A stretch of 64,000 nucleotides of DNA, taken from assembly GCA_029866325.1 (NCBI GenBank), contig JARWZO010000024.1:1-64000 (forward strand), in the 5' to 3' direction. Both the position numbers and the translations under genes were made by a program. The notes under the pieces were generated by a model that was not told where the DNA came from, did not search any database, and saw only the letters and a program-made list of their open reading frames with translations. How positions within the stretch are numbered: position 1 is the first letter of the stretch; each line of letters starts with the position of its first letter. This document shows positions 7,115 to 36,825 of this stretch, piece after piece. This DNA comes from Fluviicola sp. (GTDB taxonomy: Bacteria > Bacteroidota > Bacteroidia > Flavobacteriales_D > Crocinitomicaceae).

Positions 7115-8818
7115 ATGAAAACACACTTCTTTTTACCGTTACTCTTATTGATTTCCACGGCTGTGGATGCACAATGGTCGGGCAATACCACACCAACGTA
7201 TCCTGAACTGATCGCTTATTACCAGAAGCTTGACCGCGAACACGCTGAAATAGAATTGTATGCGATGGGGAAATCAGACACCGATTGGCCTATTTACGTA
7301 TGTATCATCAACGGAGCAAAAGATTCAATCAAAACATTCGAAAAAGCGCAAAATAGCACCACGATTTTGATCAACAATGCCATTCATCCCGGCGAACCAG
7401 ATGGTGTAAATGCGTGCTTGATTTGGATTGATAATTGGATCAAAAACGGAAAGAAAACCGCCGATTTACCAGTGATTGCTATTATTCCGGCTTACAATGT
7501 AGGTGGGATGTTCAATCGATCGTCTAATAGCCGCGCCAATCAAGACGGACCGGAAGAATACGGATTTCGTGGCAACAGCCAAAACCTCGACCTCAACCGC
7601 GATTTCATTAAAATGGATTCTCCGAATGCGTTCACTTTCGTGACACTCTATCAGGCATTGGATCCTGATGTGTTTGTTGACAATCACGTGAGCAATGGCG
7701 CCGATTATCAGTACACGTTGACATACATCGCTTCTATGAAAGAACGCATGGCGCCTTCTATGCGTGCACTCACTTACGATAAGTGTATTCCTTCTTTGAC
7801 TTCGCGTTTGAAAAAACGTAAAAGAGACCTTTTTCCGTATGTAGAATTGCAGGAAGATATTCCGGATAAAGGAATCATTGCGTTTAACGACTTACCGCGC
7901 TATGCTACAGGATATTCATCGTTGTTTCATGCACTCAGTTTCACGGTTGAAACCCACATGCTAAAACCGTTTCCCGAAAGAGTAGAGGCAACCCGGCAAT
8001 TTTTGGATGAACTCATTCTCTGGAGCAAGGAATGTGCTTCGGATATTGAATTGGCGCGTAAAAAGGCCATCGATTGGAGTTTGGAACAGCAAACGTTTCA
8101 TTACAATTACAAACGAACAGAAAAAGCCGATTCCATTTTATTCAAAGGTTATAAAGCAATCTACAAAACCAGCCCTGTTACCGGTTTAGAGCGCTTGTTC
8201 TACGATAGAAAACAGCCATTCACAAAATATGTCCCTCATTTTCAAACGCACCGTTCTAGCGATTCGGTGGCCATTCCGAAAGCGTACTTTGTGGGAGGAG
8301 CAAACACGGAAGTGATCTCTCGCTTAAAGGCCAATGGCATTGAGTTTTCAACCGTTTTACACGATTCTCTCATTTCGGTTATCACCAACAAAGTCCTGAA
8401 ATACGATTCGCCCAAACAACCTTATGAAGGTCATTTTTTGCATGGGGGAACGATGATCGAAAAAGAAGAAAACAACATGGTTATTCCGGCTGGAACCGTT
8501 ATGATTTCTACCCGACAACCGAAAATGAATTTTGTAGTTTCTGTGCTCGAACCTGCTGCTGAGGATAGTTATTTTTCCTGGAATTTCTTTGATAGCTATC
8601 TGCAACAAAAAGAATACTTTTCAGCCTATGTTTTTGAAGAAAAAGCATTAGAAATTCTGGAAAAGGACCCGCAATTGGCGCAGGATTTTTATTCGAAAAA
8701 ACGCACCGATTCCGAGTTTGCCAACAATGCATGGGATCAGCTTTACTTTATCTACAAACGAAGCATTTATTACGAAAAAACAACTGCGAATCGTTTGCCG
8801 ATTTACCAAATATATTGA
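7115..8818 (+). CDS. Secreted M14-family zinc carboxypeptidase
   Basis: 567 residues with a signal peptide (MKTHFFLPLLLLISTAVDAQ, cleavage after Ala-Gln likely). The M14 zinc site is visible as HPGEPDG (His and Glu ligands, residues ~93-99) with the third histidine in VDNHVSNGADY. The likely catalytic Glu lies in FTVETHM. An Asn-Arg pair for substrate carboxylate binding appears in DLNRDF. The C-terminal ~200 residues extend beyond the catalytic domain and are unassigned. It probably digests peptides in the periplasm or outside the cell. It is followed by a strong terminator, so it is likely transcribed alone. Confidence 0.88.
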   Translation: MKTHFFLPLLLLISTAVDAQWSGNTTPTYPELIAYYQKLDREHAEIELYAMGKSDTDWPIYVCIINGAKDSIKTFEKAQNSTTILINNAIHPGEPDGVNACLIWIDNWIKNGKKTADLPVIAIIPAYNVGGMFNRSSNSRANQDGPEEYGFRGNSQNLDLNRDFIKMDSPNAFTFVTLYQALDPDVFVDNHVSNGADYQYTLTYIASMKERMAPSMRALTYDKCIPSLTSRLKKRKRDLFPYVELQEDIPDKGIIAFNDLPRYATGYSSLFHALSFTVETHMLKPFPERVEATRQFLDELILWSKECASDIELARKKAIDWSLEQQTFHYNYKRTEKADSILFKGYKAIYKTSPVTGLERLFYDRKQPFTKYVPHFQTHRSSDSVAIPKAYFVGGANTEVISRLKANGIEFSTVLHDSLISVITNKVLKYDSPKQPYEGHFLHGGTMIEKEENNMVIPAGTVMISTRQPKMNFVVSVLEPAAEDSYFSWNFFDSYLQQKEYFSAYVFEEKALEILEKDPQLAQDFYSKKRTDSEFANNAWDQLYFIYKRSIYYEKTTANRLPIYQIY

Positions 8819-8823
8819 ATACA

Positions 8824-8848
8824 AAAAGGAGGACAGGATCCTCCTTTT
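8824..8848. terminator. Rho-independent terminator after the M14 peptidase gene
   Basis: A perfect 10-base stem (8824-8833 with 8839-8848) with a 5-base loop. The right arm ends in TTTT and the left arm begins with an A-run, so it can work on both strands. It separates the converging peptidase and lipoprotein genes. Confidence 0.85.
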
Positions 8849-8876
8849 ATAGTTGAGATTGTAGGTGTAGGGATAT

Positions 8877-9476
8877 TTACTTTTGTTGATACGTGTAAGA
8901 GCCATCAACTAATGAAGAAGAATTATCATCTGAAGAAGAAGTTCTTCGCTTCCAAATCATTTCCTTGTTTTTTAATTGGTCAATGGTGTAAATAACACCG
9001 TCTAATCCTTCATAGGTGGTAGTTCCGGTTGCATCTGTGAAAGAGGTTTCGGTCAATAAAACGGCTTCTTTGCCTTTTAATTCATTTTCCTTGCTTTTCC
9101 CAAGAAAAACCCAAGTTCCTTTGGTTGTTTCAGTAACGCCATTCTCTTTTCGGATTTGTTCAAACGTGCCGTCCTTTTCAATGGTTAACACCATCGTATA
9201 AGTTGCCGTTGTAATTGCATTGGTAGAAACACCGGAAATGGTAGTTGTGATATTTTTGGTTTCTGTTTGGCCATCGTAACTGATCACCGTGCTTTGGGTG
9301 GTATTCCCAACAATTGACTGCCCACCATATTCCAACGTTGTCAACGTCCATTCGCCTGCCAAGCGTGCTTTGCGACTTCTAAGCGAAAACAAAGGATCAT
9401 TTTCTCCTTTTTTGCAGGCGCTAAAAATTGTGGTTACCAAAAGCATAGTGGCGCTTATAAAAATGAATTTATTCAT
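8877..9476 (-). CDS. Lipocalin-like lipoprotein, function unknown
   Basis: 199 residues beginning with a lipoprotein signal (MNKFIFISATMLLVTTIFSAC, lipobox FSAC). Next comes a basic stretch (RSRKARLAGEWTL) and then a Thr-rich beta pattern with the GEWTLTTLEYGG, KDGTFEQ and GTWVFLG motifs. These fit the lipocalin-like barrels of Bacteroidota lipoproteins. The C-terminus is a Ser/Asp-rich tail. It converges on the M14 peptidase gene. It is probably an outer-membrane anchored protein; no ligand can be inferred. Confidence 0.75.
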   Translation of the reverse strand: MNKFIFISATMLLVTTIFSACKKGENDPLFSLRSRKARLAGEWTLTTLEYGGQSIVGNTTQSTVISYDGQTETKNITTTISGVSTNAITTATYTMVLTIEKDGTFEQIRKENGVTETTKGTWVFLGKSKENELKGKEAVLLTETSFTDATGTTTYEGLDGVIYTIDQLKNKEMIWKRRTSSSDDNSSSLVDGSYTYQQK

Positions 9477-32582: not shown

Positions 32583-34094
32583 TTAAGCATTGATAAACTG
32601 CCGTTTCAGATACTTTTCCGTTAACTGATTCTTATCGATTTTATGATTGCTGTTATAAGGGAAATCTGCTATCAAAGCAACATCGCCTGGAACCATATAA
32701 TAAGGAAGTTGTTCAGCCAGAAAAGCAGAAAGTTCTTCACGAGTCGGATGATTCGTTTCACTGGAGGGAATCACAAAACTGATGATTTTTTTGACCTCGT
32801 TTCCACGTTTCAATGCAATGCTCACCGCATCTGAAACACCTTTATGTTTGCACAAAATAGTGCTTATTTCATTCAGCTCAATCCGATAACCATGTAATTT
32901 TACCTGATCGTCATTTCTGCCAAGGCAAAATAGCAAATCACCTTCAAAATAAGCCAAATCGCCTGTTCTGAAAGCGCGCTTTCCGTTGTGTAGGAAGAAC
33001 TTTTCGGCATTCAGCTCCGGACGTTTGTAATAACCGATGGAAACATGATTGCCTACAATAATCAATTCGCCTTCTTTTGCCTCATGATCAGATTTGTCAA
33101 TCAACAACGTACTTCCAGGCATAGCGTAACCAATCGGTAACAGCGGATAGTCGCGAATAATTTCCTCCGTAATTTCAATCAATGTGGTGACAATTGTGGC
33201 TTCCGTCGGACCGTAAGCGTTCAATATTCGGGCTTCAGGAAAAAGTTGCTTCAACAATCCACACGTGCGATTGGGCAATTCTTCTCCCATAAACAAGAAG
33301 GTGTTGATTGCCGGAAGGTTTCCTGCGTGAAAGTTTTCGTGGCGAAGAAACAGGTATAAAAACGATGGTGTAGAAGTCCAGACACTACAACCGGTTTCTG
33401 CTAATCGGTTCAAAAATCCATTTTGGTCTTTTACTTGTTCGCCAGAACTCAGCACCAATGTAGCTCCGCGAACAAAGGCATTGAGCACGTCGCACAATGA
33501 TACATCAAACGAAAACGGTGCCTGATTCATCAGAACATCATTGCCCGAGAAACCAAAATCAACCGATGCCCAATTTACAAAGGTTTGGATAGAGCTTTTG
33601 GTGATTTGAACACCTTTTGGTTCACCTGTAGACCCGGAAGTAAAAATGATGTATTGCAGTATATCTTCCGCATGATCGGTTTCAACTTCAGGAAACACAG
33701 GTGTATGGTGAATTGTCGGATTAAAATGGCGATCAATGACTACCGAAAAATCAACGTCAGGTTGCAACTCACTTGTGCAAATCAATACCTGCGAACCGGT
33801 AGTTTCGGCAATCTTACGAATGCGCTCTATCGGATAAACAATATCGATCGGAATGTAGGTGATATCAGCATGATAACAAGCTAGCATCGCAACCGGAAAA
33901 GCACTTTCCTTATGACCGTAAATCATCACCGGATGCCCTTTCGGGATGGCTAATTCACCGAATAATTGTGTCAATTGATCAACTTGGCGGGCCAATTCTT
34001 TCCAACTAACAGCAGAATCGCTTCCGATAACAGCCGCTTTTTCAGCCTCGTGTTGAGATTCTAGAAAACACTGTCGGTTAAAATCGTATTTCAT
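32583..34094 (-). CDS. dltA: D-alanine-carrier protein ligase-like adenylation enzyme (DltA-like)
   Basis: 503 residues, ANL superfamily adenylation enzyme. Motifs: P-loop YIIFTSGSTGEPKGVQIT (~153-170), LNAYGPTEATIVTTL, TGDLAYFEGDLLFCLGRNDDQVKLHGYRIEL in consecutive segments, and the C-terminal catalytic Lys in NHKIDKNQLTEKYL. In Gram-positive bacteria DltA activates D-Ala and loads it on DltC. Length and order are DltA-like, and all other dlt genes are adjacent, with dltB 11 bases upstream. The amino acid used is not proven, and a different acyl group is possible. Confidence 0.88.
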   Translation of the reverse strand: MKYDFNRQCFLESQHEAEKAAVIGSDSAVSWKELARQVDQLTQLFGELAIPKGHPVMIYGHKESAFPVAMLACYHADITYIPIDIVYPIERIRKIAETTGSQVLICTSELQPDVDFSVVIDRHFNPTIHHTPVFPEVETDHAEDILQYIIFTSGSTGEPKGVQITKSSIQTFVNWASVDFGFSGNDVLMNQAPFSFDVSLCDVLNAFVRGATLVLSSGEQVKDQNGFLNRLAETGCSVWTSTPSFLYLFLRHENFHAGNLPAINTFLFMGEELPNRTCGLLKQLFPEARILNAYGPTEATIVTTLIEITEEIIRDYPLLPIGYAMPGSTLLIDKSDHEAKEGELIIVGNHVSIGYYKRPELNAEKFFLHNGKRAFRTGDLAYFEGDLLFCLGRNDDQVKLHGYRIELNEISTILCKHKGVSDAVSIALKRGNEVKKIISFVIPSSETNHPTREELSAFLAEQLPYYMVPGDVALIADFPYNSNHKIDKNQLTEKYLKRQFINA

Positions 34095-34105: not shown

Positions 34106-35260
34106 TTAAAATCGACCGCTAAAAACATACAACGCAAAGGCAGTCAGGTGAAAGGTCACAATAATGCTAATCCAACGTACGGCTTTCGGATTCATAGTGC
34201 CAAATACAACGTCTTTGTTTTTCTTTTTGCACTGAATCACATACGTGTTATGAATCAATGAATAGGTTCCGAAAAGCAAGCCGCTCAACACGAAATTGGA
34301 CGTAAATCCATTCCAGCAACCCATTAAGGTGAAAGTGAGAAGCAATGCTGTGTTTTGACGTGTAATCGGATATTTTTTCAGACTTTTTTTACGAGTCAAG
34401 AACATGTAGAGTGGGGTGAAAAAATAGTCTTTCAACCAGTCGCCCAAACTAATGTGAAATCGCCGCCAAAAGTCCTGTGGATTCACTGCCACAAAAGGAT
34501 TCGTGAAATTCACCGGAACTTTCATTCCCATCATGTAACCGATTCCTAACGCCATAAATGAATAACCCGCGAAGTCGAAAAACAGGTAGAAGTAATACGC
34601 GTAATAGTCATTCAGACTTGAAAGGCTTGAGTAAGTCGTTCCTTCCAATCCACCCAACCAATAACGATCAACGACTTCTGCACAGATGTATTTAAATACC
34701 AATCCTTTCAGTAAAGCATTCCAGCCTGTGATGAAGTGTTCGCTTGTGAGTGTCGAAAATCCGGTAGCTTCAGCTGCTTGAAAACGGCCATAACGCTCTA
34801 TCGGACCAATCAATAAAGTAGGAGTGAAGGACAAGAAATTGAAATACGTAAACGGATTGGCCATTTTTTCTGTTGGTGCTTTGTCCATGTAATAACCAAC
34901 GATTCTAAAACTGGCATACGACAATCCGGCAAACGATAGCAGGTTGTTGATTTTAAACGGATAAGATGCAATTTGAATATCAAACTTCACCAATAACATC
35001 GGTAGCAGAAGAATGATGATTCCCCAAATCTTGAGCTTTGGTTTTAAGACTGTTGAAAAGAGGTAAACAAAGAAGTACGAATAAATGATCAGCACGAAAA
35101 AATGCAAGGGTTGTGGAAAGAAGACGGACAAAAACAACAAATTCAATCCGGCAAGGACATATTTATACGCATTGTCTTTTAACCACAGTTTACACACAAG
35201 CAACATTCCAATGAATGCTCCCATAACAAGGAAAAACTCGTATGTACTGAATGGCAACAT
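34106..35260 (-). CDS. dltB: MBOAT acyltransferase (DltB-like)
   Basis: 384 residues with about 10-11 membrane helices. MBOAT/DltB motifs: YASFRIVGYYMDKA, FTPTLLIGPIERYGRFQ, FFDFAGYSFMALGIGYMMG, DFWRRFHISLGDWLKDYFFTPL. The His in VTFHLTAFALYVFSG (His371) aligns with the invariant DltB active-site His (His336 of the S. thermophilus enzyme, from memory). At the second conserved position the usual WHG is WNG here (Asn317), a substitution allowed in some other MBOATs. It would accept the acyl group from DltC and pass it across the inner membrane through DltX/DltD. It starts 1 base after the dltX stop. Confidence 0.9.
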   Translation of the reverse strand: MLPFSTYEFFLVMGAFIGMLLVCKLWLKDNAYKYVLAGLNLLFLSVFFPQPLHFFVLIIYSYFFVYLFSTVLKPKLKIWGIIILLLPMLLVKFDIQIASYPFKINNLLSFAGLSYASFRIVGYYMDKAPTEKMANPFTYFNFLSFTPTLLIGPIERYGRFQAAEATGFSTLTSEHFITGWNALLKGLVFKYICAEVVDRYWLGGLEGTTYSSLSSLNDYYAYYFYLFFDFAGYSFMALGIGYMMGMKVPVNFTNPFVAVNPQDFWRRFHISLGDWLKDYFFTPLYMFLTRKKSLKKYPITRQNTALLLTFTLMGCWNGFTSNFVLSGLLFGTYSLIHNTYVIQCKKKNKDVVFGTMNPKAVRWISIIVTFHLTAFALYVFSGRF

Positions 35261-35261
35261 A

Positions 35262-35411
35262 TTAGAATTGTTGGTAAACGAATTGAGTCGATGATCCGGT
35301 TTTGTTTTTCGGATGACTGTTCAACGGTGAATACAAAAGGTACAACACTATCACGATTGCGCTATAAAGCAATACGTTGATGAAAAACCGTAATGGAGCG
35401 TTTAATTTCAT
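35262..35411 (-). CDS. dltX: DltX-like small membrane protein with C-terminal FxYxxF motif
   Basis: A 49-residue frame not found by length-limited gene calling. It reads: ATG at 35411, N-terminus MKLNAPLRFFINVLLYSA, one hydrophobic helix (~8-28), a short polar linker, and the C-terminus FVYQQF, with Tyr46 three residues before the last residue. DltX of Gram-positive bacteria is a ~50-residue single-helix protein with a C-terminal FIYNEF-like motif whose Tyr carries D-Ala during transfer. The ATG overlaps the dltD stop codon (ATGA), and the TAA is one base before the dltB ATG. Size, topology, motif and position all agree. Confidence 0.88.
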   Translation of the reverse strand: MKLNAPLRFFINVLLYSAIVIVLYLLYSPLNSHPKNKTGSSTQFVYQQF

Positions 35412-36589
35412 TTAGCGAGGTGATAAGTGTTCACAATAAATTGATTGACGCGGTACCAGCCATAATCGCTGTAATGCATCACATCCGACAAAATGCCGTT
35501 GTCAAATGTCTTCGGATTACTATCCCAGGTATTTAAAAAAGGAAAGTGATTGGCTTTTAATTCTTTTTCAAGATGACGCATTACAGGTGTCAGTTCAGCA
35601 CAGTTTTCGTAATAACTCGGGTTGAGTGGCATGATTACAAACGAAACATTCGCTTTACGGGCTTTCAACAATTTTACGAGCATCCTGAAATCTTCCAGTT
35701 CGGTATTGTTGGCATCCGAAACGGGAAACAGACGACCGTTATCGCCATTTGTTTCAGCAAAGAATGCATCTTCGATCCACCAATCATTGCTCGTGGAACG
35801 TTTTCGTTGTTCTTCTTTACTCGCAATAAATAGGCTGTCCCAATCGATGCGAATAGCTTCCGAAACAATTGCTTTTCGACGATAAACAGGTTTTTCGGGT
35901 TTTCCAATCATCTCATATTTCTTTCGGTTCAACCATTCATCAACCGCAATCAAGGGGTAATAACAACCTTTGTGAAGGAAGCTTTTGGAGGATTGGTGTT
36001 CGTAATTCAGTAATTTCAAGCTCAAATCAGGATTTACAATCTCGGTATAAAAATCGGCAATGCGTTTAGCTTCGTAAGCCCTGAATTCATCATCTGGAGC
36101 ATTCGCTAATACCTGATTCAGAAAGGTCGGTGTGTTGTATTCCAGAAAAGAAGAAGAAGCTGTTCCTGCCGAAAAGCCGGTGTGAAACCATCCTGGAGAA
36201 AGTAAAATAACAATCGGAGCGCACTCCAGTTTGTCCTGATTAGCCAGCAATTGTGAATAAATAGAAAAACATTGATTTCCGGCATGTCCGATAGCCACCA
36301 CTTTTGTTTGGAAATGATCCGGAATAAAATTGTAAGGAGCCGCAGATGAGGTATGCGTCAACTCCGACGAACCCATCAGGTAAATGGTTTCAGAAGAATC
36401 GTTTGCTGCGAGAAACGTATGTTCAAATTGCCTGTTATTACTGAAATTATCCAAGTAACGCATATTTTGGTCGGCAGTAGGTAATACGGGAAGCGTAAAA
36501 CAATACTGATTGATGGTTGCGACGGAAAAGTACAATACCACAACCGCAATGGTAGCAGGAAGCAGATATTGTAACCCAACGCGTTTCAT
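35408..36589 (-). CDS. dltD: DltD-like lipid/teichoic-acid-type D-alanyl transferase
   Basis: 393 residues from the ATG at 36589. This start is preferred over 36622, which would overlap dltC. A single N-terminal membrane anchor (~5-25) places the rest in the periplasm. The SGNH-like catalytic motifs of DltD are visible: GSSEL (residues ~73-77, nucleophile Ser) and DVMHYSDYGWY near the C-terminus (Asp and His of the triad). DltD makes the final transfer of D-Ala to teichoic acid in Gram-positive bacteria. The acceptor here is unknown. It lies between dltC (5-base gap) and dltX (4-base overlap). Confidence 0.88.
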   Translation of the reverse strand: MKRVGLQYLLPATIAVVVLYFSVATINQYCFTLPVLPTADQNMRYLDNFSNNRQFEHTFLAANDSSETIYLMGSSELTHTSSAAPYNFIPDHFQTKVVAIGHAGNQCFSIYSQLLANQDKLECAPIVILLSPGWFHTGFSAGTASSSFLEYNTPTFLNQVLANAPDDEFRAYEAKRIADFYTEIVNPDLSLKLLNYEHQSSKSFLHKGCYYPLIAVDEWLNRKKYEMIGKPEKPVYRRKAIVSEAIRIDWDSLFIASKEEQRKRSTSNDWWIEDAFFAETNGDNGRLFPVSDANNTELEDFRMLVKLLKARKANVSFVIMPLNPSYYENCAELTPVMRHLEKELKANHFPFLNTWDSNPKTFDNGILSDVMHYSDYGWYRVNQFIVNTYHLAK

Positions 36590-36594
36590 CCTAG

Positions 36595-36825
36595 TTAATC
36601 GATTTGTTGCACCGTTTCGCAAATGCGGTTGATCGTATCGAAATTGTCTTCATTGATCAAGTGCTGAGGGATTTTCTTCCCGATGTGCTCTTCGATACTT
36701 ACTAACAAATCGACCACAGTAATCGAGTCCAGTAGTTTTGATTTCACGATCGAATCATCTTCACCGACCTGTACGAAGGCCAGATTCATAATTTCATCTT
36801 GAATAAACTGCTTAAGGTCTTCCAT
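36595..36825 (-). CDS. dltC: Acyl carrier protein (DltC-like)
   Basis: 76 residues, an acidic helical carrier. The phosphopantetheine attachment Ser is Ser34 in KLLDSITVVDLLVSIEE, the LDS motif of DltC-type carriers. It would be loaded with the amino acid by DltA. It is the first gene of the dlt operon, and its promoter lies in the 247-base divergent space shared with carB. Order dltC-dltD-dltX-dltB-dltA differs from the usual Gram-positive dltX-A-B-C-D order. Confidence 0.88.
   Translation of the reverse strand: MEDLKQFIQDEIMNLAFVQVGEDDSIVKSKLLDSITVVDLLVSIEEHIGKKIPQHLINEDNFDTINRICETVQQID

Follow-up and report, generated by a model that had tools for sequence, protein, structure and literature searches.

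The dlt operon of the window

The window (the whole 64,000-nucleotide stretch of DNA that was analysed, from the genome of an aquatic bacterium of the Bacteroidota) carries on its minus strand what, judged by its sequence, is a dlt operon of five genes in the order C-D-X-B-A. The gene dltC (36595..36825, minus strand, as are all features given below) encodes a carrier protein of 76 amino acids with LLDSITVV around the phosphopantetheine Ser, which scored 22.3 bits with the Pfam PP-binding model (cut-off 20.8) and 31.4 bits with NCBIfam DltC (cut-off 68). It is followed by dltD (35408..36622), encoding an SGNH-type transferase of 404 amino acids from a TTG start, a later ATG being possible. Both the GSSE and the DVMH motifs (Ser and Asp-His) are there, the Pfam DltD model gave 151.5 bits, and a profile comparison matched the solved DltD structure 7dxm at 6.7e-24. 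The MBOAT protein encoded by dltB (34106..35260) has 384 amino acids and ends in VFSGRF; it scored 48.6 bits with Pfam MBOAT and 236.9 bits with NCBIfam LTA_dltB (cut-off 375), and its profile aligned over almost the whole chain with the solved DltB structures 6bug and 8jem at about 2e-63. The last gene, dltA (32583..34094), encodes an amino-acid adenylation enzyme of 503 amino acids with Asp197 kept and Phe249 at the column of DltA Cys269 (Pfam AMP-binding, 205.2 bits; NCBIfam DltA, 426.2 bits, cut-off 476). The NCBIfam Dlt models were the best or among the best matches for these four neighbours of the small frame, all of them under cut-off; by our own reading those cut-offs were set on Gram-positive proteins. 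No recurrent neighbour family that might name the acceptor was found in more than five of 51 loci (frames of more than 100 amino acids within 9.5 kb, many of the loci being short), so the dlt operon stands alone.

Between dltD and dltB lies the small frame dltX (35262..35411), which translates into the 49 amino acids MKLNAPLRFFINVLLYSAIVIVLYLLYSPLNSHPKNKTGSSTQFVYQQF, with a single hydrophobic helix and the C-terminal sequence FVYQQF. This acyl-shuttle motif is encoded by 35265..35282, and the codon of the putative acceptor within it, Tyr46, is located at 35274-35276. The ATG of dltX shares four bases with the stop codon of dltD (ATGA), and the stop codon of dltX is separated from the ATG of dltB by one base. 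The helix, the FVYQQF end, the overlap of four bases and the gap of one base had all been claimed in an earlier note on this DNA, and they are borne out by the sequence and its translation. Comparison with the nearest relative, locus L003, gave 14 synonymous and 2 non-synonymous codon changes in dltX (dN 0.022, dS 0.76, dN/dS about 0.03), a stronger constraint than that found for dltB or dltD in the same pair, and dltX is therefore under purifying selection. Because it is the sole frame ending in F.Y..F among the 547 small frames (30-100 amino acids) of the window, because of the 14:2 codon changes and because the frame recurs before dltB in other loci, 35262-35411 is a real gene, more than chance.

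Conservation of the small frame across dlt loci

A scan of named genomes, based on alignment of DltB, kept 80 loci, 50 of them with a Bacteroidota-type DltB (L018-L067) and 30 with other MBOATs. The frame was present before dltB in 46 of the 50 scanned Bacteroidota loci; in the other four (L036, L055, L065 and L066) the contig breaks off there. Counting also the window and L003, it was found in all 48 Bacteroidota loci that have readable sequence before dltB; the pattern used to search for the frame required the Tyr, yet every locus with readable sequence gave a match. The tails of the 48 frames were FVYQQF (33), FIYQQF (11), FVYQKF (2), FVYQNF (1) and FIYAQF (1). Conservation in the 48 rows was 100% for Phe44, Tyr46 and Phe49, 98% for Gln47 and 94% for Gln48, and most helix positions vary. 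In the scanned Bacteroidota loci dltX sits directly after dltD, except in L040 where dltC lies between the two. Given this occurrence in 48 of 48 loci and the dN/dS of about 0.03, a chance open frame without a product, which the length of 49 amino acids and a weak model score might have suggested, is ruled out by the selection and conservation tests and has practically no probability left.

A search with DltD only, in which DltB was not used, gave 12 related Bacteroidota loci, 9 of which appear to share genomes with loci of the DltB scan; all 12 have a frame of 49-60 amino acids ending in F[VI]YQ[QN]F between dltD and dltB. The DltD search also gave matches over cut-off in 5 of 398 genomes, which are the five Pseudomonadota loci considered here, and all five carry a frame of 39-40 amino acids between dltD and dltB that ends in FEYQKF (3) or FEYQQF (2). 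In the four Firmicutes loci the frame was found before dltA in each case, with the tails FIYNDF, YIYNAF, FVYSQF and FIYNGF. The earlier note had proposed to look at the last six residues in relatives, and to give up its reading if the frame was not conserved or its Tyr varied freely. The frame was present, and its Tyr unvarying, in all 48 readable Bacteroidota loci and all five of Pseudomonadota.

In ten loci (L021, L030-L033, L037, L038, L043, L044 and L047) dltX and dltB lie in one reading frame, separated by one stop codon and one or two further codons.

Occurrence of dlt operons

A search for DltD was positive for 12 of 119 related genomes and for 6 of 14 of the same genus, and the dlt operon is therefore patchy. 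A sample of 395 genomes from the phylum gave four DltD matches, near full length only in the window's own genome. In a tree of DltB, the window and L003 were placed in one clade of Bacteroidota sequences and three relatives from the same genus in a second, both with full support. Two dlt lineages thus occur within the genus, which transfer between lineages or differential loss would account for. The MAG contigs L039 (Chlorobiota) and L056 (Kuenenia), assigned to other groups, have a DltB that stands among Bacteroidota in the tree, and may be misbinned.

Relationship of the frame to DltX

The likeness to DltX that had been claimed for the frame was confirmed as far as its position, topology, tail and partners are concerned, all of which agree: it has 49 amino acids with one hydrophobic stretch, an FxYxxF end with an invariant Tyr, and dltA, dltB, dltC and dltD as neighbours. 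The Pfam DltX model (PF12459) gave it 14 bits against a cut-off of 25, for the helix part alone and with a query without the first Met, and membership therefore rests on position, topology, tail and partners, by which the frame is a DltX. Other Gram-negative frames scored 19.4 (L018), 16.5 (L019) and 10.7 bits (L025) with the same model; the match of L018, the best of the Bacteroidota frames scanned, covers nearly the whole model. Zero matches were obtained for the Gram-negative frames L049, L063, L130 and L194, and zero also for L128, a Firmicutes frame in the dltX position, so the model misses true members.

A profile made from the 48 Bacteroidota frames was searched against 5,638 small frames, and the first seven places were taken by DltX frames, those of three of the four Firmicutes and four of the five Pseudomonadota loci. 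The scores across phyla were weak, with a best E of 0.0048, L128 in 14th place and L133 unlisted. A profile made only from the Pseudomonadota frames matched itself and none of the others in the same 5,638. Owing to the weak cross-phylum scores and this blank result, common descent beyond the tail is unproven, and the frame is a DltX by descent probably, but not provenly. A search of the PDB with the DltX profile gave repeat-protein noise alone, and a literature search gave no paper on DltX in Bacteroidota.

Fused and separate motifs in other MBOAT systems

According to PMC12148441, MBOATs outside Dlt bear the motif at their own C-terminus. This was also the case for 27 of 27 complete non-Dlt MBOATs among L069-L097 and for the other four MBOATs of the window's genome, and DltB of the window lacks the motif, ending in VFSGRF. 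The match between the DltX tail and that of motif-fused MBOATs (all 27 complete ones of this set and 33 of 35 in another) speaks against the view that the frame is a conserved small membrane subunit which merely stabilises a DltB-DltD complex and has its FxYxxF tail by coincidence. Its helix is as expected for such a subunit, but the tail is the most conserved part (Phe44, Tyr46 and Phe49 in every one of the 48 rows) and the helix is mostly variable, so that a purely structural role is very improbable.

MBOATs without the motif have a separate adjoining frame, namely DltB in the Dlt loci and the MBOATs of L068, L072, L196, L202, L206 and L210. As these six loci lie outside Dlt proper, it does not hold without qualification that a microprotein of this kind is absent from other MBOAT-SGNH systems. 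Locus L068 (7543-11962, Sphingopyxis bauzanensis) resembles a dlt cluster, with DltA replaced by an amino acid--[carrier protein] ligase that is seryl-tRNA-synthetase-like and scored 166 bits with NCBIfam NF005479 (cut-off 357). After the ligase come genes for a carrier protein (8763-9005), a GNAT protein and an MBOAT of 391 amino acids, then a frame of 36 amino acids ending in FVYGGF and a protein with SGNH-like motifs. The role of amino acid--[carrier protein] ligases is called unknown in PMC9437257, and the arrangement in L068 suggests that such a ligase supplies an aminoacyl relay of the envelope. In the family of L068, 55 of 199 genomes gave matches to its MBOAT; among the matches listed, 29 of 29 loci (L141-L169, including 28 other than L068) were motif-fused, and the L068 system was not found again among them. 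In L072 (192-4490, Deltaproteobacteria bacterium RIFOXYA12) an adenylation enzyme, a carrier protein, a 384-aa MBOAT with the His, a small frame ending in FVYRGF and a protein with SGNH-like motifs stand in a row, and this is a Dlt-like system with a different gene order. In the Myxococcota-type loci L202, L206 and L210 a motif-less MBOAT has a downstream 59-aa frame ending in FIYIDF, with a probable SGNH gene after it; no Pfam family scored over cut-off with the 59-aa frames. L196 has a motif-less MBOAT with a separate downstream frame ending in FVYVNF.

A rule that a separate microprotein accompanies MBOATs fed by a carrier protein was considered and rejected. L081, L095 (9608-14672) and L096, of Lachnospiraceae and Eubacterium type, pair a DltA-like adenylation gene with a nearby motif-fused MBOAT, a DltX-less arrangement to which L095 adds a DltC-like gene. 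L202, L206 and L210 have the separate frame and no carrier gene in the short stretch available.

The active site of DltB

Three residues of the window's DltB fall in columns that are of functional interest in the DltB of S. thermophilus: His269 (34454..34456) in that of His289, where the residue is kept, Asn317 (34310..34312) in that of His336, and Ser326 (34283..34285) in that of Tyr345. The S. thermophilus numbering was counted from the alignment to 6bug, which is gap-free between the three columns. His336 of S. thermophilus DltB is described as invariant and active in PMC11035591, where an inhibitor lies between His289 and His336 and bonds Tyr345; the MBOAT His is called universally conserved, and required in PatA and DltB, in PMC12148441.

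In 55 Gram-negative DltB sequences the columns of His289, His336 and Tyr345 held His (55), Asn (55) and Ser (55). In 25 Firmicutes DltB they held His in 24 and Asn in one, His in all 25, and Tyr in all 25; in 34 motif-fused MBOATs they held His (34), His (34), and Trp in 30, Phe in 2 and Tyr in 2. Left out of these counts were L036, L065 and L066 (short), L075 (open), L129 (no cover), L192 (motif not found) and the duplicates L114 (a copy of L127) and L118 (a copy of L126). When short rows were included, all 52 Bacteroidota and all five Pseudomonadota sequences had Asn at the His336 column. The DltB scan had used the pattern MG[FC]WNGF, which includes this Asn, beside a second pattern without it. 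The 17 loci found through DltD alone (12 Bacteroidota, 5 Pseudomonadota) all have the Asn as well, and the His-to-Asn change is therefore not an effect of the scan pattern. No substitute His was found in DltB: in the sole candidate column, that of His337 in the window, 7 of the 52 rows from Bacteroidota have Tyr or Phe instead. In MBOATs from the phylum of L072 the His was kept in 20 of 20.

The acceptor Tyr has thus been kept while the loading site of DltB has been rebuilt, with an Asn and a Ser that are as fixed as the residues they replace. Since DltB is without His336, the loading step may work differently from the Gram-positive one. One explanation would be that the Tyr relay is present and DltB is not its chemical catalyst but a transport scaffold, the acyl transfer being done by DltD or by the tail itself. 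The replacement by Asn, in 55 of 55 Gram-negative DltB, of a residue called required in DltB and PatA (PMC12148441) would fit a scaffold. However, the remaining MBOAT core is kept, including His289 (55 of 55) and the FFDFAGYS region, and the Asn and Ser do not vary either, as would be expected of a working site and not of decay. A scaffold role for DltB is accordingly considered unlikely. The other explanation, to which we give about an even chance, is that DltB might load the DltX Tyr without the supposedly universal MBOAT His, by means of the His269-Asn317 pair and the adjacent invariant Ser326. This would make Gram-negative Dlt a mechanistically distinct class of transmembrane acyl relay, moving an amino acid that is not necessarily D-alanine onto a non-teichoic polymer. 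For such a site we infer that His269 could be the base, with Asn317 and Ser326 shaping the site in place of the missing His336; Ser326 might even hold the acyl group en route.

DltA, the amino acid and the acceptor

In Bacillus cereus DltA, Cys269 favours D- over L-alanine (PMC4176424, PMC8972799). The window has Phe in this column; among 47 Bacteroidota DltA it is occupied by Tyr in 29, Phe in 16, His in 1 and Leu in 1. Cys was found in none of these 47 and in none of the 5 Pseudomonadota sequences, and in all four from Firmicutes. Rows in which a gap of two residues directly follows the Cys269 column are aligned with less certainty. DltA retains its catalytic Lys and the Asp that binds the amine.

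The polymer could thus receive something other than D-alanine from this operon, for instance glycine, L-alanine or a larger amino acid. The replacement of the Cys in the window and the 47 Bacteroidota sequences points that way, as does the score of the window DltA, which is under the cut-off with the NCBIfam DltA models. On the other hand, the Asp and Lys are kept and the DltA models are still the top NCBIfam matches, and the Cys is also missing in all five Pseudomonadota DltA, so that its loss need not mean another substrate. A different amino acid is therefore tenable, though less likely than not.

As to the polymer, the genome of the window gave no match to PF04464 (TagF/TagB type), the control being positive in 3 of 14 genomes. 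In soft-rot enterobacteria, dlt is connected with resistance to antimicrobial peptides, probably via lipopolysaccharide (PMC5541007, citing Pandin 2016). For the present operon we infer an acceptor that would be a non-teichoic glycan such as lipopolysaccharide or capsule. Because the DltB site is changed, the DltA Cys is absent and a TagF-family match is lacking, the loading chemistry, the amino acid and the acceptor may all differ from those of the Gram-positive Dlt system. The suggestion of the earlier note that the Gram-positive tyrosine relay is kept here thus stands for the acceptor Tyr; it does not extend to DltB with its changes of His336 to Asn and Tyr345 to Ser, to the Cys of DltA, or to a TagF-family gene, none being found.

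Proposed acyl relay and its implications

The reading that we favour with considerable confidence is that the frame is the dltX of a self-contained Gram-negative C-D-X-B-A operon, in which an acyl group would pass from DltA to DltC, DltB, Tyr46 of DltX and DltD, and finally to an envelope glycan. DltA would activate the amino acid (D-alanine or another small one) and charge DltC, whose arm would enter DltB from the cytoplasm. DltB would move the acyl group across the inner membrane to Tyr46 in the FVYQQF tail at the periplasmic face. The charged tail would then swing to DltD, the Ser of DltD would take the group, and DltD would esterify the envelope glycan in the periplasm. Like its Gram-positive relative, the 49-residue DltX very probably carries the aminoacyl group on Tyr46. 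PatA has been shown, and DltX is reported, to carry an acyl-Tyr in the hexapeptide motif (PMC12148441), and the acyl-Tyr intermediate and its hand-over to DltD are proposed here by analogy with Gram-positive Dlt and PatAB. An AlphaFold model was made of L021 with dltX and dltB read through the intervening stop codon. DltB had a mean pLDDT of 87.6 and DltX formed a helix at residues 2-25; the DltX tail (residues 37-51), the end of which is tied to DltB in this construct, had a pLDDT below 50, and the model is therefore uninformative on docking.

If this relay operates as proposed, tyrosine relays through DltX are not peculiar to Gram-positives but are fixed in dlt operons of Bacteroidota and Pseudomonadota, which, to our knowledge, are not known for teichoic acids. 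Because of its changed DltB, the system would go beyond plain DltX membership and represent a variant with testable loading chemistry. It would also provide a natural test of MBOAT chemistry, as a clade with an intact relay has Asn at the 'universal' His in every member seen. Either another residue can stand in for the His when the acyl group moves to tyrosine, or the role of base does not fall to DltB, and both possibilities can be tested in vitro.

Comparison with known systems

Gram-positive DltX (Pfam PF12459, DUF3687), as described in PMC5541007 and PMC12148441, resembles the DltX of the window in its length of about 50 amino acids, its one helix, its C-terminal F-x-Y-x-x-F with an invariant Tyr and its location in a dlt operon. 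The Gram-positive dltX precedes dltA, whereas that of the window lies between dltD and dltB, and the residue after the Tyr is Gln in 52 of 53 Gram-negative frames and Asn or Ser in the four Firmicutes.

Dlt operons are possessed by Dickeya and Pectobacterium (PMC5541007, PMC10142376), and our guess is that the five Pseudomonadota loci are of this kind. As in the window, the DltX frame of these loci and of the plasmid locus L194 lies between D and B, and their DltB has the Asn and the Ser. Loci of the enterobacterial type differ from it in the order D-X-B-A-C, in a DltX of 39-40 amino acids and in the tail FEYQ[KQ]F. In L194 and L195 (2736-6788), on plasmids of Klebsiella electrica and Enterobacter cloacae, a whole dlt operon of the order D-X-B-A-C lies between insertion-sequence genes. 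The earlier note had expected that so small a frame would be skipped by routine gene calling; this does not hold for the 40-residue enterobacterial version, which on these two plasmids is called in RefSeq as 'hypothetical protein' and is thus unnamed, not uncalled.

The PatAB and AlgI-type MBOAT-SGNH pairs described in PMC12148441 have in common with the window's Dlt system the Tyr-bearing hexapeptide and the logic of an MBOAT with an SGNH partner. They differ in carrying the motif on the C-terminus of the MBOAT and in keeping His336 (34 of 34). Compared with the S. thermophilus DltB (6bug, 8jem), the DltB of the window shares His289, and in the Gram-negatives His336 is replaced by Asn and Tyr345 by Ser. 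The order of the pair in the window's DltB, His269-Asn317, is the reverse of the Asn-His order that is given for ACAT1, DGAT1 and PORCN in PMC11035591.
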